Shown piece by piece: positions 21,439-39,696 of a DNA stretch of 47,249 nucleotides (the stretch's first letter is position 1; each line of letters begins with the position of its first letter). Both the position numbers and the translations under genes were made by a program. Origin of the DNA: a virus; IMG/VR virus record IMGVR_UViG_3300037235_000271, positions 1-47,249 of that record; one strand, written 5' to 3'. Below the pieces are notes generated by a model. That model was given only the letters and a program-made list of their open reading frames with translations, had not been told where the DNA came from and did not search any database.

Positions 21439-23979
21439 TCAGCAATCTCCCCAGGAGGTTTCTGACCATTTGAATCCAACGGGTATTATCAGTGGATCAT
21501 CATAAGGAATCGTGATTTGTGCAGCGGTTTTGAGCCTTGGCTTCCACTCTTCGAGCTCACTTGTGGAGGTTTGAAAGCAGAGCGAATCATGGACCTGCAT
21601 CAGCACCTCCACCCCCATTGAGTCAAAGGCCTCCCAGATCTTATTGATCACATTAGACACAGTGGACTGGGGAATCCAGGCTACCGCTTCCGCCAAAATA
21701 CTATCGAGTCGATCGAAAATATACCAGCGATAGCCAAATTTGTTCTCCACATATTGTCTACGGCTAATCTGATTCTCAATCCTTTTGTGCCATCGGAGGA
21801 TTCCAGGGTGAGCTCCAAACCAGAGTCTTTGAGCTCGGTCAATTTCGTGAATTGTTCGGCCGGTGTGAGCTGCCATAGTGGGTGGTTTTCCGCAATAATT
21901 AGTTCCGTGGCAAAATACTTTGGCGAATTCCCGAGTGAGCTTCTTAGGCCCTCTATGATCTCGGTATCGAGGGTGGGACTCCACAAGTTCCTCGAGCGGA
22001 GGAGGTTCCTGACGGTCAAGAACAAACGCGTTAAGTAAATGGATATCCGCCCCCATTCGCATCGCGGCTTTGAGCATTTCATCTTCAGCCTCCCAAACTA
22101 CTACCTGCAGGTCCGCCCGATCCAGATCCATATCGCAAAAAGTATAGCCTGGGTCAGGAACAAACATAGAGCGAAGATTAGGAAGTGCGTATGCTGCCCC
22201 AATTTCGTTGAAATTTCCCCTAGCCTTAGCCTTACCAGCTGACTTAGACTTGTCACTCGGGACGGCCTGAAGATTGGCTCCGCTTCCAAAGGCATTTTCA
22301 CTAGACGAAAGGCGGTAGGTCTTAGGTGCTGATTTGCCAGACTCAGATCCCCCGATGTTATAAGCACATCGCATGCGACCATCAGTGTCGAGAGCCTTGC
22401 ATAGGAAATTGGATAGGAAGATCCCGAGAGTTCGAATGTCAGATATACAATTGATGACGGGTCGAAGAAGGGGCTCTCGATGAGCAATTTTCTGCAGGGC
22501 TTCGTCGTTGAGAGTGACATGACCGGGTTTGCCTTTTTTTGCCCGAGTTTTGATAGTATCTTGGTGAAGGTCTTCGTAAAAGAGCTGCTTCATCTGCTTA
22601 GGCGAGCGAGGGTTGAGCGAGTGGCCAAGGATCTGTTTGAGAGTTTCCTCTCGGAATGAGACTTGTTCCTTTACTTCAGCTATGAGTTCATCCCGCCGGC
22701 GGGTGTCAATGCGGACTCCGCGTATCATAGTCCGCAGGACGGGATAGAACATTCGCTGTTGAGCCGCGTGAACGGCTTCGAGGCCATAGCGTTTTGACGC
22801 TTCGATCTCAACCTGAGCGACTTCGTCGGTGTAGACACAGTCTTCACAGTTATAATACCACCCTCGGTCTTCATCATTCCCGCCAGCGTTGAATTCTTTC
22901 CCTTCATTTTTCCAGTAGAAATAGTACTTACAATAAATCGAAGCTTGGTAAGCTAGGGCCTTAGGCTGATCGCTGAATAGCGAGTGCTGGGAAATTATCG
23001 TGTCCTGGGTTACTCTGGGGATGAATCTCCAGTGACGGTAGGTATATTGGCAATCGTAGAGCAGGTTCTGCCCGATGACCTGGACCAGAGGATGTGTAAG
23101 GAGGAGATAGAGAAGGTATATAATAATGGATTCTTGCTCAAGATCCCAGTAACCTTTAGGGTCAGCCCTGGACATGAACGGAATACAGAGTGCTTCAAGA
23201 GGATTCCATGAGATTCCAGCGCACGCAATATGGCCTACTCGAGTTTCGAGATCGAAACTGATTCGTAGGGATTCACCAGAGGTGAGTCGATCTATAAGCC
23301 GATGGAGGATAGAGTAACAGAGCTCAAATGTCGGGCGGATATGGAAGTTCCAGAGAGGCTTGGGATATGGTGAGCCGTCGCGGAACTGGACGGCCCGGCG
23401 AAGGTCGTTGATGACCGCCGGGCGAAAGGACCATTCGCGAAGAACCGCGGCGGGATGGATAGTGGGGATGAGCTTGTATTTTTTACTCCCAACAAGACAG
23501 GTCATCATCGATCCCCGCCAGTCAGTTATCCCCCACTGACCAGTAAGAGCCCAGAGAGGAGTATTGCCGAGGGCGATGATAATGTTAGGGTTGAGCTGGG
23601 AGATCTCTTGGTAGAGAAGGTATAGTCCTTGGTGAAAGGTTGGTGAGATGTGTCGGTTGTGGAAGGGGGTGAAGCCTGGAGGAACCTTGGTCTTGTTTTC
23701 ATAGATATGAAGTGACATGTCATCGTATGGAGGATGCTCCCGCACGACGTTGGTGAGGAAACATTCGCCCTTGGTCCAGTCCATTCCATAGCGATTGAGC
23801 TGGGAGTACCAGACCTGTTGGCCAGGAATGATACCAGACTTGCTTAGCATCTTGCCAAGTTCCATACCAGAGGCACCGACGAAGGACTGGCCGATAAGGT
23901 CCTCACCAGCTCCGGGAGCTTCGCCCACGATCATGATCTTAGCATTTCTCGGGCCAACCGGCGGGACGAGGTTAGGCAT
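21439..23979 (-). CDS. UDG - 3'-5' exonuclease - family A DNA polymerase fusion
   Basis: The 846-residue protein joins three modules. Residues 1-200 look like a family-4-type uracil-DNA glycosylase (GEAPGAGED at 19-27, FVGASGMELGKML, GNTPLWALTG, HPAAVLR at 175-181). Residues from about 235 carry a DnaQ/Pol I-like exonuclease (FDLET at 242-246, GQNLLYDCQY). The C-terminal half is a family A polymerase: motif A DMDLDRADLQ (Glu replaced by Asp), motif B REFAKVFCHGTNYCG and motif C QVHDSLCFQ with HD at 797-798. It is the phage replicase. The fused glycosylase suggests uracil excision or sensing during synthesis. Confidence 0.85.
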   Translation of the reverse strand: MPNLVPPVGPRNAKIMIVGEAPGAGEDLIGQSFVGASGMELGKMLSKSGIIPGQQVWYSQLNRYGMDWTKGECFLTNVVREHPPYDDMSLHIYENKTKVPPGFTPFHNRHISPTFHQGLYLLYQEISQLNPNIIIALGNTPLWALTGQWGITDWRGSMMTCLVGSKKYKLIPTIHPAAVLREWSFRPAVINDLRRAVQFRDGSPYPKPLWNFHIRPTFELCYSILHRLIDRLTSGESLRISFDLETRVGHIACAGISWNPLEALCIPFMSRADPKGYWDLEQESIIIYLLYLLLTHPLVQVIGQNLLYDCQYTYRHWRFIPRVTQDTIISQHSLFSDQPKALAYQASIYCKYYFYWKNEGKEFNAGGNDEDRGWYYNCEDCVYTDEVAQVEIEASKRYGLEAVHAAQQRMFYPVLRTMIRGVRIDTRRRDELIAEVKEQVSFREETLKQILGHSLNPRSPKQMKQLFYEDLHQDTIKTRAKKGKPGHVTLNDEALQKIAHREPLLRPVINCISDIRTLGIFLSNFLCKALDTDGRMRCAYNIGGSESGKSAPKTYRLSSSENAFGSGANLQAVPSDKSKSAGKAKARGNFNEIGAAYALPNLRSMFVPDPGYTFCDMDLDRADLQVVVWEAEDEMLKAAMRMGADIHLLNAFVLDRQEPPPLEELVESHPRYRDHRGPKKLTREFAKVFCHGTNYCGKPPTMAAHTGRTIHEIDRAQRLWFGAHPGILRWHKRIENQISRRQYVENKFGYRWYIFDRLDSILAEAVAWIPQSTVSNVINKIWEAFDSMGVEVLMQVHDSLCFQTSTSELEEWKPRLKTAAQITIPYDDPLIIPVGFKWSETSWGDC

Positions 23980-24148
23980 GGGAGTGGGTCCTGAGCCAGA
24001 TGAGCATCTGTCTTGATGCCTCGGCGTCGGTAACGACTTTAGCCTCCCGGCGGAGGCGATAGAGTTGTTGGCGAAGCACCTTGCACTCTAAGCACTCCCC
24101 CTTTGCATTCCGCCGGGAGTGCTTTTTACACTTGTTGAATGGAGTCAT
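23972..24148 (-). CDS. Small zinc-knuckle protein (58 aa)
   Basis: This short gene fills the gap between methyltransferase and polymerase. It encodes MTPFNKCKKHSRRNAKGECL, then ECKVLRQQLYRLRREAK and a C-terminal helix. C7, H10, C19 and C22 could hold zinc (CxxH...CxxC). The ATG overlaps the methyltransferase stop (ATGA) and the 3' end overlaps the polymerase start by 8 bases, so it is coupled on both sides. A replication accessory role is possible but not shown. Confidence 0.6.
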   Translation of the reverse strand: MTPFNKCKKHSRRNAKGECLECKVLRQQLYRLRREAKVVTDAEASRQMLIWLRTHSHA

Positions 24149-25491
24149 TTCAGCTCCTTCAGCCGCCGCACAGCGATACCATAGGCGCTCTGGTTCTTTT
24201 CCACACCTGTAGCGAAGATTTTTAGCGAATGTGCTGCGGGGAATATTGTCCCTGTCCCGGCGAAAGGATCCAGAACCCGGTCGCCAGGGTTGCAGCTTCG
24301 ACGAAGGAGGTCAGTATAGAGTGCAACCGGCTTCTGCGCCGGATGATTAAGATTCGGATCTGAGGGCCAGGTGAGCACATCTGGTGCAAGGGCTCGGCAG
24401 GGTCGATCTCCTTTGGTGGCGTAGAGAATTGCTTGCCACTTGCGCTGGGGGCCAGAATGTGGCCAGGGAGCGCGTTGACCACTAGGGTTGACCCAAATGA
24501 GAGGGGTTCTAAAGGGTTTTAGTCCTGAACTCTGAGCGATGTGCTTCAGCCAGGGAAACCAATCAATATCACAGAACCAATAGAGATGTGATATAGGTTT
24601 CATAGAGATAGAAACCATATCTATCCATTTGGGGGCTGAGGCCTTAAACATCTCTGGCTGATCATCGTAGAAATGCGCCCCCTGCGCCAGCCCATCGGAG
24701 TCTCCAAAGTCCTGCGCCCCTATCCCATAAGGCGGATCGGTAAGGACGCAGTCGAATGACTCTGGCTCCCAAGAATTGCATTTGTCCAGGCAATCTCCAA
24801 GGAGTAGAACATGACTCGCTGAGCTGAATGTCGCGCCTATTTCCTTCGCAAGGTCCTCAGCTTTTTGCAGATCCTCTTCCCGCTTAAGGATCTTAAAAGC
24901 CTCGTCGACGTTCTTAGCCTTGGAGATGAGAGGATTATCCAGGTTCCTAGAGACAATAAGTTCTTTCCTAACTGCGTCATGTGCCGCGCCAGGCTGCATA
25001 TCTGGTCTGGATTCTTTTGCAATGACGGCAATTGTAGGAGCTGGACGGTTATCGCGTTGACTCTCAAGTCGCATGAGTTCAGCCAGTTGTGAAACTGCTC
25101 GGACTCGGTCTTGCCAAGAGAGGTCCCGCCGGCGAATGTTCTCGTCGAGCTCGGCGCGGAAGGTGGTGATGTGATCGAGCTCGCCAAGGAAGTTAACTGG
25201 GACGTGGTTGATGGGAAGTTCTTCTTGACCATATTTGAGCTTCCTTCCCATCTGCCACATGAGATCGATGGCTTTGAGTCGGCATTCGCCGGCGACCAAG
25301 GTGAACCAATCGAACGAAGGATCGCGGGAGGCTGTTTCTTTATCATTGGCTCCGCGGACGATTGGGGGGTGGAATAGTCCATTGTCGGTGATGGAGTCAG
25401 CGAGCTCTACGATATACTCTGGGTCGAGATTGATGCGCTGGCGGTGGGGAGGAATGATGATGGAGCTGAAGTTAATGACATGATGGGTCAT
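24145..25491 (-). CDS. ParB-domain / DNA methyltransferase fusion
   Basis: The 448-residue protein has an N-terminal ParB/Srx-like domain (about 1-125: IVELADSITDNGLFHPPIV, GECRLKA at 68-74, ENIRRRDLSW at 117-126) and a C-terminal amino-methyltransferase with DPPYG at 252-256 and DPFAGTGT at 408-415. The motif order (catalytic DPPY first, AdoMet-binding FxGxG last) indicates a beta-class N6-adenine or N4-cytosine enzyme. It probably modifies phage DNA against restriction, or marks sites for control. No cognate restriction enzyme is nearby. Its start overlaps the preceding micro-gene. Confidence 0.85.
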   Translation of the reverse strand: MTHHVINFSSIIIPPHRQRINLDPEYIVELADSITDNGLFHPPIVRGANDKETASRDPSFDWFTLVAGECRLKAIDLMWQMGRKLKYGQEELPINHVPVNFLGELDHITTFRAELDENIRRRDLSWQDRVRAVSQLAELMRLESQRDNRPAPTIAVIAKESRPDMQPGAAHDAVRKELIVSRNLDNPLISKAKNVDEAFKILKREEDLQKAEDLAKEIGATFSSASHVLLLGDCLDKCNSWEPESFDCVLTDPPYGIGAQDFGDSDGLAQGAHFYDDQPEMFKASAPKWIDMVSISMKPISHLYWFCDIDWFPWLKHIAQSSGLKPFRTPLIWVNPSGQRAPWPHSGPQRKWQAILYATKGDRPCRALAPDVLTWPSDPNLNHPAQKPVALYTDLLRRSCNPGDRVLDPFAGTGTIFPAAHSLKIFATGVEKNQSAYGIAVRRLKELK

Positions 25492-26120: not shown

Positions 26121-26600
26121 TTAAGCCTTCGTCACCGACCCGACCTGATCGTAGATCTCCTGCGTAGCCTTGTCCACCCGGTGGGAGATCTTGATCTTCA
26201 CCCGCCGGCCCTGGAGCATGCGGAAGGTGAATGGCTGCCCGGCCGTGTTGAGATCGGTTGCTTCGCGCCACTTGCGCATCTTGTTGTTCTTCCCTGGAGC
26301 AAGATCAATAGTCTCCGCCGGGGTGAGATCGAGGAAAAGGTTGTCGGTCATGGTGAGCTTTTCGATCCCGCCCTGTTGCTGCATCACCTCGGGGTAGAGA
26401 GTGAGATCGATCTCGACAGGGATATCGATGACCTTGGAGGTTTTCTCCATCCCTGTGGTTTGGTCGGTGGACTTAACCTCACGGCCCTTGGGCTCTCCAA
26501 CAGTACCAAGGAGTTCAATCCCGGCGGGAAGTGGCGGGCGGCGGGTTGAGGCTTCGGTTATGGCGGCGTCGAGGAAACCAGAGAATGAGAAGTCAGACAT
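26121..26600 (-). CDS. Candidate ssDNA-binding / recombination accessory protein
   Basis: The 159-residue protein starts with MSDFSFSGFLDAAITEAST and has a proline-rich turn (PPLPAGIELLGTV) before a beta-rich core (KVIDIPVEIDLTLYPEV, KLTMTDNLFLDLTP) and a final helix. It resembles phage proteins with an FLDAAI...PAGEY-type opening that accompany Sak4-like ATPases and act as SSB-like partners. Similarity is by pattern only; the OB-fold is not proven. GGAG precedes the ATG. It lies two genes downstream of the ATPase. Confidence 0.5.
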   Translation of the reverse strand: MSDFSFSGFLDAAITEASTRRPPLPAGIELLGTVGEPKGREVKSTDQTTGMEKTSKVIDIPVEIDLTLYPEVMQQQGGIEKLTMTDNLFLDLTPAETIDLAPGKNNKMRKWREATDLNTAGQPFTFRMLQGRRVKIKISHRVDKATQEIYDQVGSVTKA

Positions 26601-26632: not shown

Positions 26633-26920
26633 TTAGAATGGGAGGTCATCATCGATGGTTATTGAGGTTTCTGGTAGTTTTGGTTCCTGAAGGCCATAAC
26701 TGTCGTTATGATATAGATCAGTATATACCTGTAGTGGTTTAGGCGATCTTGAGGGTTCTTTTGGTAGCTCCTTGTCTGTATCAATACTAATGCCGAAAAT
26801 AACGCCGCTTTCAAGTGGCCACTCAGCCTTGATACTATCTCTTGGGATATCTTCATAACCTAGCGAAGTGAGAATTATATCGAGCACTTCAGCGCTGGAT
26901 AGTTCAATATTCAGTTTCAC
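26633..26920 (-). CDS. Small acidic protein with SSB-type C-terminal tip
   Basis: The 95-residue protein starts at a GTG that overlaps the ATPase stop (GTGA). The N-terminal 50 residues are mixed helix and strand (LSSAEVLDIILTSLGYEDIP, then VIFGISIDTD), followed by a Pro/Ser-rich linker and ITIDDDLPF at the very end. The last six residues closely match the DDDIPF tip by which bacterial SSB recruits its partners. It may be a divergent SSB or a mimic that engages host SSB-interacting enzymes. It sits between the Sak4-like ATPase and the SSB candidate. Confidence 0.6.
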   Translation of the reverse strand: MKLNIELSSAEVLDIILTSLGYEDIPRDSIKAEWPLESGVIFGISIDTDKELPKEPSRSPKPLQVYTDLYHNDSYGLQEPKLPETSITIDDDLPF

Positions 26921-27831
26921 TTCTTTACCCCTTGTACAAATTCGCCGCCACGGGAATGCCACTTGGCCATTATGGCTGTGAATGTCGGCGGGATGCCATC
27001 GGCCCAGGGGAGGTTGCGGGCCTTGAGATCACACTGGGAATTCGCTGTGGACCAAGAGAACTTTCCCCCCTCTCGGACGGAGAGGATCACGTCGCTGAAC
27101 ATAGGAGAGAGCTTTGGAGCCAGCTTCCGCCCGAGGGTGGAGGTCATGAGCTTGACACCACCTGATACCTCATCCAGCTCCCTCTCTATATGTGCGGTGA
27201 GGATGAAGTGGCATTTGAGCCCGTCGGTGCACTGTTTGATGAATTTCTCCAAGAGATCCATCGCGGCTCCCCACTCTGGCTGAGTACGAACGGCCTTGTT
27301 CCCTATCACAATGCTGAATACAATGGGGTTGATGCCGCTGAGCGAGTCGATACAGAATACCCGGTCGGGACCCCAGGTGTCAACTGGGGAGAAGGTCTTG
27401 CCACAATGATCACACTTCGGCGCTGAGAGGGATTTGAGAAAGGTTTCGAAGTGATTATTCTTCATCTTATCTGGGTCGGTCATCTTCATCAGCGCGTCGA
27501 GAGTGTAGGTGTTGAGCTGATTCGCCGCCTTGGCGAGGATGTCAAAGCCCCCGACGGGGCGGTTCATTATGGACCAGTGAACGTTAGAAGGAATCGACCG
27601 GCCATAGTCGGTCCATCCGCCGAGGAAGGTTTCGAGCCCCTGCTCGGTGAAGGAGACGAAGACCTCGGGTACTCGCTCCGCGAGGGTGCAGAGGGCAGTA
27701 GTCTTTCCTGTCCCGCCGGGGCCTTGGAGGAGAATCTTAACTCCGGGGAGAAGTGAAAGCTTGTCGCTCGTTGTGAGCTGGGCTTGGACTGGAGGCCGTT
27801 GTAAATCGCTGTTGGTTATATGTACGTTCAT
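26917..27831 (-). CDS. Sak4-like RecA-type ATPase (annealing/recombination)
   Basis: The 304-residue protein is a P-loop ATPase of the AAA_24/Sak4 type: Walker A LLQGPGGTGKTT (37-45 core), Walker B RVFCIDSLSG, and sensor strand CHFILTAHIERE, with FVSFTEQGLETF near the start. An unusual insertion carries CDHCGKTF, a possible half zinc-knuckle. Sak4 proteins are phage single-strand annealing or RecA-like recombinases that work with an SSB, which fits the two downstream genes. It overlaps the upstream gene by 95 bases. Confidence 0.75.
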   Translation of the reverse strand: MNVHITNSDLQRPPVQAQLTTSDKLSLLPGVKILLQGPGGTGKTTALCTLAERVPEVFVSFTEQGLETFLGGWTDYGRSIPSNVHWSIMNRPVGGFDILAKAANQLNTYTLDALMKMTDPDKMKNNHFETFLKSLSAPKCDHCGKTFSPVDTWGPDRVFCIDSLSGINPIVFSIVIGNKAVRTQPEWGAAMDLLEKFIKQCTDGLKCHFILTAHIERELDEVSGGVKLMTSTLGRKLAPKLSPMFSDVILSVREGGKFSWSTANSQCDLKARNLPWADGIPPTFTAIMAKWHSRGGEFVQGVKK

Positions 27832-29793: not shown

Positions 29794-30035
29794 TAGGTGT
29801 TCTCCTTAGAGATTTTCTCCCACTCTTCTTTAGACTTTTCGTTTAAGAAATTGCTGAGGGCAGATTGTAGCCATTTAGCTTTGTGGTTTATATCAATAGC
29901 GTTTTTGTTAGCCTCCTGATACTCTTGTATACTCTCGGCTAAGACAACGATTTGTTTAGCTTGGGCAGGGGTAAATAAATTATCCTCGTAACATAGCCGG
30001 AGGAATTCTATTGCATCTGAAAGAACTATGTTCAC
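29793..30035 (-). CDS. Small helical early protein
   Basis: The 80-residue protein (MNIVLSDAIEFLRLCYEDNL...) is predicted all-helical with charged coiled-coil character (VVLAESIQEYQEANKNAIDI). It starts at a GTG overlapping the previous stop (GTGA). The local sequence is A/T-rich compared with its neighbours. No motif was recognised. Confidence 0.55.
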   Translation of the reverse strand: MNIVLSDAIEFLRLCYEDNLFTPAQAKQIVVLAESIQEYQEANKNAIDINHKAKWLQSALSNFLNEKSKEEWEKISKENT

Positions 30036-30247
30036 AGACCCAGCTCCCCGAGCATCTCATCAGCGCTCTTCACAGGGCCCTTGGCCCGCTTTCCGCCTTT
30101 GGCTCCCTCGGCCGCCTGGGCAGCGTACCGCCCCTCACGAAGATAACGAATGGCCTCCCTAGCCTCATCCAGTGTCATCGTACCGGCAGCAGCACGCTGG
30201 CGGAGGTTGGAGAGCTTGGCTTGGATCTCTGGGGACTGCGTGGACAT
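30032..30247 (-). CDS. Small basic protein with shared C-terminal motif
   Basis: The 71-residue protein has a helical first half (LDEAREAIRYLREGRYAAQA), a Gly/Lys-rich linker (AKGGKRAKGP) and ends in SADEMLGELGL. That ending recurs in three other early proteins (ends at 30950, 33038 and 39055). It is the first gene after promoter 30292-30320. It may be a DNA- or partner-binding adaptor; this is inference. Confidence 0.6.
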   Translation of the reverse strand: MSTQSPEIQAKLSNLRQRAAAGTMTLDEAREAIRYLREGRYAAQAAEGAKGGKRAKGPVKSADEMLGELGL

Positions 30248-30949: not shown

Positions 30950-31447
30950 TTACCAGTCTCTCAGACCAAGTTCCTCCAGCATCCCCTCCACGTCCGGCTT
31001 AGGGGTGAAGCTCAGCCGGCGGTTTCGTTCGACAACAGTTCGGATGAGTTCTATATTAGAGGGAAGGGATTTGATGACCTCCATTTCGAGAAGGGATTCT
31101 CTTGGTGAGGGTTCTTTCCACTGGGGAATGTGTTCAACTACCTGGGGGGTGGCTGTGAGCTCGGCCTCCGGATTGAGATGTGTGAGCCGCCGGGCATGGA
31201 CACGCTTACAGGTTGTTTCCTGAAACATTCCAAGGAACTCTCCGTTGACCATGAGGGCTACGATCGGTCCGGCGGACCACTTGTAATTAGCCTGTTTTGG
31301 GATGAGGGTTTTTTCGACTCTTAGGGGGGATGGAGCTTGAGGAGTGGCCTGTGCTCGCTGAGTCTCTCGCTTTGCGAGCCATGCTTCTCGCTTTGCGTCG
31401 GTGAGGAGCTGATCGAGGTCGAGGAGGGAATGGGGCTGAGTGGTCAT
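30950..31447 (-). CDS. Early protein with shared C-terminal motif
   Basis: The 165-residue protein has an N-terminal basic helix (LDLDQLLTDAKREAWLAKRE), a central beta segment (WSAGPIVALMVNGEFLGMF) with CKRVHARR, and a helical end closing in DVEGMLEELGLRDW. The MLEELGL part matches the ends of three other early proteins. No enzyme motif is present. Confidence 0.55.
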   Translation of the reverse strand: MTTQPHSLLDLDQLLTDAKREAWLAKRETQRAQATPQAPSPLRVEKTLIPKQANYKWSAGPIVALMVNGEFLGMFQETTCKRVHARRLTHLNPEAELTATPQVVEHIPQWKEPSPRESLLEMEVIKSLPSNIELIRTVVERNRRLSFTPKPDVEGMLEELGLRDW

Positions 31448-33037: not shown

Positions 33038-33748
33038 TCAGCCCAAGCCCACCGATGCCAGAAGCGCGTCGGTATTGACGTGGGAGTTCTTCGCCGCCTT
33101 CTCCGCCTCGATCCGGTCGATCGTCGGCTTGATCTTTGAACTTGCCCGTAGGGCGAGCTTTTCCTTTGGTGATTTTGCCTTGAGAAAGGCCTTCATCTCC
33201 TCAACGGACTTGCCGGTGAGCTCCACTAGGGCCTTGAGCAGGACACTCGTTCCTGACATCCCTCCACCCTCACGAACCATCGACCACTCGCCTTTATTCA
33301 GCTGGTCGATGAGCTCTTCAACCTCCAGAACCATATCATCAACATCCTCAATCCCCGCGGTCTCGTCGCCGAGCTTTTGCTCAGCTCCATGGAGGGCAAA
33401 CTGGGTAAAGAGGCTCTCGGGGAGGATGAAATTCAGCACCCGCCCGTTGCGGAAGTTCAGCCGGACGAAGGCTGGAATGGTCTCGCCGAGGTCGTTCTGG
33501 CGAGGGAGGAAGGACTCTTTGAGCATCCGCCGGGCGCCGACGAACTCGACATTCCGACCGTCTTCCATTGTGATGACCTCAACTTCGCGGGTCTTCTTAG
33601 CCTTCGCCGGTAGGCCGACCGGCGGCTCAAAAGACCCGTTGGATGGCTCGATCTGCGCTTGTGGATGGGGCTGTCCGGTGTAGCCGGCGGCGTGGATTTG
33701 AGCGCTGTGAGCGCTGTGAGCGCTGTGAGCGCTGTGAAACTCGTTCAT
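33038..33748 (-). CDS. Conserved-looking early protein with SAH repeats and shared C-terminal motif
   Basis: The 236-residue protein starts with MNEFHSAHSAHSAHSAQIH, a tripeptide repeat from a 9-bp tandem repeat, then a Pro-rich linker. The body (VEVITMEDGRNVEFVGARRM, FVRLNFRNGRVLNFILPESL, HGAEQKLGDETAG, LNKGEWSMVREGGGMSGTSV) resembles a family of unknown phage proteins of early modules. It ends VNTDALLASVGLG, related to the MLxELGL endings elsewhere. AGGAGA precedes the start. Its own promoter lies at 33810-33838 and a terminator follows at 32702-32735. Function is unknown. Confidence 0.65.
   Translation of the reverse strand: MNEFHSAHSAHSAHSAQIHAAGYTGQPHPQAQIEPSNGSFEPPVGLPAKAKKTREVEVITMEDGRNVEFVGARRMLKESFLPRQNDLGETIPAFVRLNFRNGRVLNFILPESLFTQFALHGAEQKLGDETAGIEDVDDMVLEVEELIDQLNKGEWSMVREGGGMSGTSVLLKALVELTGKSVEEMKAFLKAKSPKEKLALRASSKIKPTIDRIEAEKAAKNSHVNTDALLASVGLG
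33701..33736 (-). repeat. Four tandem copies of a 9-bp unit in coding sequence
   Basis: AGCGCTGTG (plus-strand reading) occurs four times in a row and encodes the SAH repeats near the N-terminus of the 236-residue protein. The unit length is a multiple of three, so copy number changes would keep the frame. Confidence 0.85.
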
Positions 33749-37544: not shown

Positions 37545-37758
37545 GAGCTAAAACCCTGCCACACGCGTGCGCGGCTTCCACCGTTCCCATTTCCCTCTCC
37601 CAGATCCTCGCTATCACATATTGCCCAGTCCTATGTGGTGCGTTGATCCAAGCTAATGCGGTCTCTTCATCTGTAAACGGCCCTATCACCTCCCCATCCA
37701 TTCTTGTTTCGATGATATAAGTCTTGGTTGATATAGCTGCTGTCTTATTACTTTTCAT
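37531..37758 (-). CDS. Small early protein, unknown function
   Basis: The 75-residue protein (MKSNKTAAISTKTYIIETRM...) has two strands, a GEVIGPFTDEETALAWINA helix and a final VIARIWEREMGTVEAAHACG segment. It resembles small proteins with a FTDEETAxAW motif but no function is known. It overlaps the genes on both sides by 11-14 bases. Confidence 0.55.
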   Translation of the reverse strand: MKSNKTAAISTKTYIIETRMDGEVIGPFTDEETALAWINAPHRTGQYVIARIWEREMGTVEAAHACGRVLARDEV

Positions 37759-38626
37759 CGAGACCGCCTTCGCTCTCCGTCAGTACTAACCACTCACAAC
37801 CATAGGCTTTCATATCAACCAGGATTTGCACGACATCTTCCGCGAAGGCGGTCAACTGTTGATCTGTGGCGCAGGCAGCTGAGGTGGCAACATTGGCAAC
37901 ATTGGCTGCATAGGCTGCATTGGCAACATTAGCTGCATCGGCGGCTGCATAGGCAACATCGGCAACATTGGCTGCATAGGCGGCTGCATAGGCTGCATCG
38001 GCTGCATAGGCTGCTGCATCGGCGGCTGAGGCAGCGTAGTCAGCTGAGGCATCGGCTACATAGGCAGCGTAGTCAGCTGAGGCGTCGGCTGCATCGGCTG
38101 CATAGGCAGCTGAGGTATAGGCGGCTGAGGTATAGGCGGCTGAGACATAGGCAGCTGAGGCATAGGCGGCAGTGCAAGCTTCCTCAGCATTTTCCCGAGT
38201 TGGCTCTAGCTCGCATGCCAGAGCGGCTTTGAGCATGGCGTCCTTTTTCTGTTCATTTCTACAAATGCTGGCCGCCGCCCGGAGAGCGATTGGAACCTGG
38301 GTCTGGATTGCAAGCCGCGCAATGCGCTGCACGAACTCCTTCTCATCTAACGTGCCAGCCGAGCCGAGCTGGGCAAGAGCTAGACGACGCAGCCCCTTGG
38401 ATCGCGCCATATTGGATGACCAGCGCGCATCGTTCAAACGAATCTTGAGACGGCGCAGAGATGGGGCGACGCAGGTTGGTTGGTCTCCATGTGGCAGGCC
38501 CATGGCGTAACACACCGCGGCCTCGACACACATCTTGCCGGGGATCGGCTCGCCTATGCTGGAGACCAGGCCAGCGTCAACCACCTGAAGAACCTTGCGT
38601 GCGACAGTGATATCAATTTCCATCAT
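37748..38626 (-). CDS. Alanine-rich repeat protein (immunity-protein-like family)
   Basis: The 292-residue protein has a globular N-terminus (ARKVLQVVDAGLVSSIGEPI, then GKMCVEAAVCYAMGLPHGDQ and RLKIRLNDARWSSNMARSKG), a long repeat region (about 150-255) made of five-residue units of the type AAY(A/T/V)S and AADA(A/N), and a helical end (LTAFAEDVVQILVDMKAYGC, then EWLVL). Similar bacterial and phage proteins with Ala-rich repeats are sometimes labelled putative immunity proteins. The repeats could form a helical or solenoid rod. AGAGG precedes the start. The biological role is unknown. Confidence 0.65.
   Translation of the reverse strand: MMEIDITVARKVLQVVDAGLVSSIGEPIPGKMCVEAAVCYAMGLPHGDQPTCVAPSLRRLKIRLNDARWSSNMARSKGLRRLALAQLGSAGTLDEKEFVQRIARLAIQTQVPIALRAAASICRNEQKKDAMLKAALACELEPTRENAEEACTAAYASAAYVSAAYTSAAYTSAAYAADAADASADYAAYVADASADYAASAADAAAYAADAAYAAAYAANVADVAYAAADAANVANAAYAANVANVATSAACATDQQLTAFAEDVVQILVDMKAYGCEWLVLTESEGGLDEK
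37867..38180 (-). repeat. Degenerate 15-bp tandem repeats coding Ala-rich pentamers
   Basis: About twenty imperfect copies of units such as GCATAGGCGGCTGAG and GCATCGGCAACATTG (plus-strand reading) follow each other within the Ala-rich gene. They encode five-residue steps and keep the reading frame, so slippage or recombination would change protein length without breaking it. Confidence 0.7.
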
Positions 38627-39054: not shown

Positions 39055-39606
39055 TCAGTCCCGCAGCCCCTTTTCTTCCTCCCCTGAGAGTCCCAGCTCA
39101 CTGAGCATTTCCTCAGGATCGATCTTGCTCGCCCCCTCAGCCCGAATTTCATCAGCAAAAGGCTTCAATTTCGCTGAGTTCAGCAAGACCTTAACATCTC
39201 CCCCAGTTTTCCCTTTCACCCAGCCTTCAACATCATCCATCTTCGCCCCTGCGCGTTTCAACACCCTAATCAGCAGACCTTTCTCCCCGCCTATCCCATT
39301 CCCTTCACTTCTCCCCGGACTCCATTCCTCAGCTCCGGAGTTATACCATTCACAGAGCTCTGCCATGGCGTCAAACTTGTCTTTCGAACTCGCAGGCTTA
39401 CCTGTTTCCCTACTCCGAGAGAGTGCGGCGGCATCGCGAATTCGCTGAATCATTCCATGAGTCAGCCCTGCTCTCGCATTCGCCTCGCTTAAGAGCTTGA
39501 GATCCAGCGTTAATTCCCCAATCTCCTCAACCTTGAAAATGATACAATCGCTAAAAATCTTGTGTGAAATCACGCCGTTGGCTCGCTTTTTGCCTTCGCT
39601 AGTCAT
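39055..39606 (-). CDS. Early protein with shared C-terminal motif
   Basis: The 183-residue protein (MTSEGKKRANGVISHKIFSD...) has a strand-rich start (IFKVEEIGELTLDLKLLSE), an Ala-rich helix (MIQRIRDAAALSRSRETGKP) and a KFDAMAELCEWYNSGAEEWS segment. It ends IDPEEMLSELGLSGEEEKGLRD-like, containing the MLSELGL motif found in three other early proteins. AAAGGA is 8 bases before the ATG at 39606. Two tandem operator-controlled promoters stand upstream, so it is probably among the first proteins made. Function is unknown. Confidence 0.65.
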   Translation of the reverse strand: MTSEGKKRANGVISHKIFSDCIIFKVEEIGELTLDLKLLSEANARAGLTHGMIQRIRDAAALSRSRETGKPASSKDKFDAMAELCEWYNSGAEEWSPGRSEGNGIGGEKGLLIRVLKRAGAKMDDVEGWVKGKTGGDVKVLLNSAKLKPFADEIRAEGASKIDPEEMLSELGLSGEEEKGLRD

Positions 39607-39667
39607 TTTAGTTTCCTTTGATTTGAACCGTGTTCTGTTGTTACCCGAGGATGAGGCCCTGTGGGTG

Positions 39668-39696
39668 ATCATACCCGGGCATTATCTCTCAGTCAA
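39668..39696 (-). promoter_or_regulatory. Early promoter (proximal of tandem pair) with CCCGGG box
   Basis: On the minus strand TTGACT (39696-39691), 17 bases, TATGAT (39673-39668). CCCGGG directly precedes the -10 hexamer, and a second box (CATCCTCGGGTAAC) lies just downstream, 39654-39641. The site is about 60 bases upstream of the ATG at 39606 and exactly 71 bases from the distal promoter. Confidence 0.7.

Follow-up and report, generated by a model that had tools for sequence, protein, structure and literature searches.

A small orphan phage protein with an SSB-like C-terminal tip, encoded between a Sak4-like ATPase gene and a tail-less SSB candidate

A 95-aa protein, P0001, encoded on the minus strand of a 47,249-base IMG/VR virus record (the whole stretch analysed here, referred to as the window), ends in DDDLPF, an exact and non-random SSB-like tip whose occurrence is beyond chance. 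The reading that we favour, with a probability of about 0.4 and on the basis of sequence comparison, is that P0001 is an accessory, recently acquired protein that supplies an SSB tip in trans, which would dock on SSB-tip pockets and recruit Sak4 and/or host repair enzymes.

The gene and its neighbours

P0001 lies in a recombination/replication cluster whose order along the minus strand is PD-(D/E)XK nuclease, 142-aa protein, Sak4-like ATPase, P0001, P0002, 116-aa protein, ParB-methyltransferase fusion, UDG-DNA polymerase A fusion and DUF3987 protein. A first-pass annotation of the window had described a protein with an SSB-like DDDLPF end at 26633-26920, lying between a Sak4-like gene and an SSB candidate. 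Translation and the statistics given below confirmed the former, and the neighbours proved to be as described. The main features are as follows:

29327-28278, minus strand: PD-(D/E)XK nuclease of the recombination/replication cluster
26917..27831, minus strand: Sak4-like RecA-core ATPase (PHROG 124 "Sak4-like ssDNA annealing protein", E=9.5e-12; Pfam AAA_24)
26633..26920, minus strand: P0001, orphan protein of 95 aa with the C-terminal SSB-like tip DDDLPF (by translation)
26780..26920, minus strand: P0001 head, residues 1-47, a small predicted alpha-beta-beta unit of low confidence (single-sequence model)
26654..26779, minus strand: Pro-rich, probably disordered linker of P0001, residues 48-89, with 6 Pro (pLDDT <50 for residues 60-90)
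26636..26653, minus strand: codons of the tip DDDLPF, followed by the stop TAA at 26633-26635
26121..26600, minus strand: P0002, OB-fold, distantly DUF669-like SSB candidate without an acidic tip (from homologues beside sak4 and a model)

The translation of 26633-26920 (minus strand) is VKLNIELSSAEVLDIILTSLGYEDIPRDSIKAEWPLESGVIFGISIDTDKELPKEPSRSPKPLQVYTDLYHNDSYGLQEPKLPETSITIDDDLPF, followed by the stop, with SITIDDDLPF at its C-terminus. Its GTG start overlaps the stop of the Sak4-like gene by 4 nt (..AAG AAGTGA), and a Shine-Dalgarno-like AAGGGG is found 7 nt upstream of the start. A second IMG/VR contig, IMGVR_UViG_3300037248_000413, carries an identical 11,270-bp stretch, which is uninformative on evolution but renders it unlikely that P0001 arose from an assembly or frameshift error. 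The third-position GC content (GC3) of the P0001 gene is 0.344, compared with 0.689 in sak4 and 0.731 in the ssb gene (P0002), and the gap between sak4 and ssb in relatives is either empty or occupied by unrelated small ORFs, some of them HNH-type-like by eye. By this GC3 contrast and the variable slot, the P0001 gene looks like a recent insertion.

The two fusion genes of the cluster join a ParB-like N-terminal region to a DNA methyltransferase (24145-25491, minus strand) and a uracil-DNA glycosylase domain to a family A DNA polymerase (21439-23979, minus strand). Elsewhere in the window, a 292-aa protein (37748-38626, minus strand) has a long run of AAYAS/AADAA-like repeats. The 142-aa protein was considered as an SSB (PHROG 378, E=0.02) and rejected, the match being weak and partial.

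P0001 is an orphan and P0002 the SSB candidate

Bacterial SSBs (E. coli DDDIPF; S. aureus SsbA DDDLPF, PMC10573954) likewise end in a hexapeptide after a disordered linker, and the tip of P0001 is identical to the S. aureus form; unlike there, no OB-fold ssDNA-binding domain is attached to it. As judged from sequence and model, P0001 has the features of an SSB-tip ligand, namely a D/E-rich C-terminal hexapeptide, a Pro-Phe-COOH end and a predicted flexible linker. It shares the acidic tip ending in PF with bacterial-type SSBs (PF00436), but the OB fold of that family was not detected: P0001 has no Pfam or PHROG match, and its head is predicted, at low confidence, as alpha-beta-beta. The single-sequence model (mean pLDDT 53) contains one helix and two strands within residues 9-46, forming an alpha-beta head of about 47 aa, and is disordered after it, with pLDDT <50. 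A fold search with this model, which is too poor for the purpose, gave no match below E 0.78. No homologues of P0001 were found in phage records (E<=1), plasmids, PDB sequences, Pfam, PHROGs or 47 related viral records. With the head alone as query (E<=10), the sole match was to 27 residues of Pseudomonas jumbo-phage entries, most of which are annotated as tail sheath (E=4), and we took it as chance.

The neighbouring P0002 has a different profile. A homologue adjoins sak4 in most of about 80 related loci, and the two genes are <=200 bp apart in 44 of the 63 loci having both. The P0002 model (39-row alignment) reaches pLDDT 91, and its best PDB match is PrgE of plasmid pCF10, an OB-fold ssDNA-binding protein (E=5.9e-4), followed by weaker matches to yeast RPA and SSBs. 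The TM-scores with PrgE are modest (0.41-0.57), and therefore the OB assignment rests on match ranking and the mostly-beta layout. As modelled, P0002 is the candidate for the real phage SSB. Pfam DUF669 matches one of 42 family members, weakly (E=0.0028). None of 63 distinct P0002-family sequences has a C-terminal PF, PY or PW, or a tip like NDYPPF of phage HK620; P0002 itself ends in ..SVTKA, the SSB of contig G051 in ..ARVDAVSVV, and one member, from Vibrio phage VS-ABTNL-3, in the acidic DEDEE. The distant Sak4 relatives L004 and L005 have no P0002-type SSB family. A scan of genome contigs gave one weak partial match.

The first-pass annotation had proposed that P0001 may be the real SSB of this phage. 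The SSB-like tip and the position beside sak4, the usual place of an ssb, speak for this proposal, but the predicted head offers neither an OB fold nor an SSB family match and the role is filled by the adjacent P0002, the conserved partner of sak4, so that we consider it extremely improbable that P0001 is itself a phage ssDNA-binding protein. P0001 is an orphan and in all likelihood not the phage SSB.

Recurrence of the tip

Given the composition of the 2,475 ORFs (>=60 aa) fetched from related loci, a DDD[ILM]PF C-terminus is expected at 3.3e-8 per ORF, or about 2e-6 per 60-gene genome. In the same ORFs, [DE][DE][ILVFM]PF is found at a single one of 374,741 internal positions and five times at C-termini, where 0.007-0.013 are expected; among these five are the window and the contig that shares the identical stretch. 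At the DNA level, a scan of 51 whole records with the pattern [DE][DE]xPF-stop gave five matches, each of them the true end of a gene, and none with the reversed pattern used as a control. A relaxed pattern added one true case (NDIPF, in L075), but it is uninformative alone, because its control gave six matches; two further relaxed-pattern matches were dropped, as their terminal codons were TGG, not stops. That the tip is incidental, a chance product or a remnant on a protein with some unrelated function, is thus very unlikely given the chance figure of about 2e-6 per genome and the strong C-terminal enrichment in the related group, even though P0001 is an orphan without demonstrable conservation. 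The linker, furthermore, is unlike any sampled SSB tail, and we rejected P0001 as a broken SSB tail on the same lack of similarity to sampled SSB linkers.

The tip recurs on unrelated small proteins of related phages, so that it gives the impression of a transferable module and not of an accident. In L021, which has the same sak4 and tail-less ssb pair, its bearer is a protein whose gene ends immediately upstream of sak4. Two relatives with that pair carry it on phrog_2479-like proteins (DPDDIPF in L045 and EDDNDIPF in L075), and in several relatives the tip gene does not adjoin sak4. A zincin-like family of small phage proteins with an HExxE-type motif carries the tip in three further relatives with that pair, L044 (556-987), L035 (83-205, cut by the contig end) and L221. 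In these three of eight members, DDDIPF stands behind non-aligning linkers, and the other five end at the core domain or in an unrelated end. Such a pattern would be expected of a modular, selected tip and, as far as sequence can tell, gives the best indication that selection favours the tip as a module outside SSBs. It is no proof for P0001, an orphan without a diverged relative.

A wider sample of viral contigs with DDD[ILM]PF-TAA comprised at least 80 contigs. The pattern closes an open frame in nearly every one of the 80 matches listed, 2 or 3 frames being too short or cut to judge. Among the matches listed, the top Pfam families of 75 tip proteins are SSB (17), gp32 (7), DUF3127 (4), DUF669 (3) and SSB_1 (3), and PHROGs label several small tip-bearing families as SSB. 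Non-SSB bearers among the same matches are helicases (two by Pfam, PHROG 16) and a polymerase processivity factor (PHROG 947), besides four members of PHROG 1811 (73 aa) and many unassigned proteins. The tip is thus a frequent but unreliable marker of SSB-type proteins. The DDDIPF-ending helicases and processivity factor lie at L157:942-2774, L124:4836-6524 and L155:6511-7689. In the PHROG 1811 proteins (73-75 aa; L099, L114, L121 and L154) the DDDIPF end lies mostly beyond the profile.

A different C-terminal sequence was seen in the window, where ELGL-type tails end, or nearly end, apparently unrelated small proteins, all on the minus strand:

30032-30247, minus strand: tail SADEMLGELGL, then stop
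30950-31447, minus strand: tail EGMLEELGLRDW, then stop
33038-33748, minus strand: tail TDALLASVGLG, then stop
39055-39672, minus strand: tail PEEMLSELGLSGEEEKGLRD, then stop

Proteins of 70-88 aa in L058, L072, L073 and L077 end in SDDLLKELGL or SDDLLGELGL. From these sequences, the ELGL-type tail is a possible second C-terminal docking motif in related phages.

Recruitment or blocking by a tip in trans

P0001 combines a small head, a flexible Pro-rich linker and a DDDLPF peptide in the form recognised by SSB-partner proteins. In the favoured reading, the head would most likely associate with the phage recombination complex (P0002, Sak4 or ssDNA), the tip would dock in an SSB-tip pocket of Sak4 and/or of host SSB partners (RecO, RecQ, PriA, Exo I, chi), and the docked partners would be brought to phage single-stranded DNA. 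We infer the binding to a pocket, the identity of the partner and recruitment as the outcome by analogy with phage HK620, in which the tail NDYPPF of the DUF669 SSB is required for binding of Sak4 to SSB-covered ssDNA (Hutinet 2018, PMC5928155) and accounts for most of the stimulation of recombineering (PMC5928155). As in HK620, a sak4-like gene here adjoins an OB-fold SSB and a tip-like peptide is found in the same cluster; in HK620, however, the tip is within the SSB, whereas here the SSB lacks it and a separate protein bears it. Given the requirement for the HK620 tail, a tip gene lying between sak4 and a tail-less ssb is of interest, though most relatives show neither. Against a tip in trans, more than 60 related loci keep sak4 and the tail-less ssb and in most of them no tip gene was found (many of these contigs are fragments, in which such absence is not proof of absence), which argues against a general need of Sak4 for a tip in the related group; binding of the P0001 head to P0002, Sak4 or DNA is, moreover, putative.

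The chief rival takes P0001 to act outside the phage complex, its free tip filling the SSB-tip pockets of host Exo I, RecQ, RecJ, RecO, PriA and chi and denying these proteins access to SSB-coated DNA; P0001 would then counter nucleases or serve host takeover. It has this rank because the gene is accessory and no DNA-binding domain can be recognised in P0001. Its low GC3 (0.34 versus 0.69-0.73) and a slot held elsewhere by unrelated small ORFs and HNH-like genes are as expected of host-interaction genes, and the unrelated scaffolds bearing the tip do not always adjoin sak4. Small RecBCD-binding phage proteins such as Abc2 and gp5.9 would offer a parallel in acting on the host repair machinery, but in the available part of the source they are not described as SSB-tip peptides (PMC9836394). 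The position of P0001 and its translational overlap with sak4 speak against such a decoy. Isolated SSB tips are weak binders, and blocking would thus need a high dose or an oligomeric head. Blocking is possible, if rather unlikely, and recruitment is preferred because of the gene position, the overlap with sak4 and the HK620 precedent.

We rate as clearly improbable that the tip serves phage partners only and is unconnected with the host, its docking site being an SSB-tip pocket in a replication protein of the phage (the helicase, the polymerase or Sak4). The DDD[ILM]PF ends of the helicase (PHROG 16) and the processivity factor (PHROG 947) indicate that phage replisomes use the peptide widely. 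Like P0001, these are non-SSB phage proteins with an SSB-like tip, but they are enzymes or clamps of known type and P0001 is a small orphan; the pocket on the phage side is putative, and sequence data do not separate this reading from a tip in trans. The earlier suggestion of a hub that captures host repair proteins survives in part, unlike that of a real SSB: it fits the sequence and the recurrence of the tip on accessory proteins, but a phage partner (Sak4) is equally likely, given HK620.

A doubtful but broader form of the favoured reading is a split SSB hub, with the OB fold and the docking tip on separate chains and the tip on interchangeable small scaffolds (P0001 and the L021-type, phrog_2479-like and zincin-like proteins), so that recruitment could be swapped without change to the SSB, perhaps because phage SSBs trigger the AbpAB and Hna defences. 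AbpAB is reportedly activated by phage SSBs (PMC10732053), as is Hna, with further systems named alongside (PMC13381803); that a tip encoded apart from the SSB could be of importance for these defences is speculation.

In the literature searched, which covers part of the journals, we found no paper describing phage proteins that mimic the SSB tip. The recurrence of the tip would be a warning that a phage gene should not be named SSB from the tip alone. No docking peptide in bacterial DNA repair has been studied more thoroughly than the SSB tip, which is usually treated as belonging to SSB. Related phages with a tail-less SSB and the tip on unrelated small proteins would serve as a natural experiment in which the tip acts alone, and would show whether it recruits or blocks.
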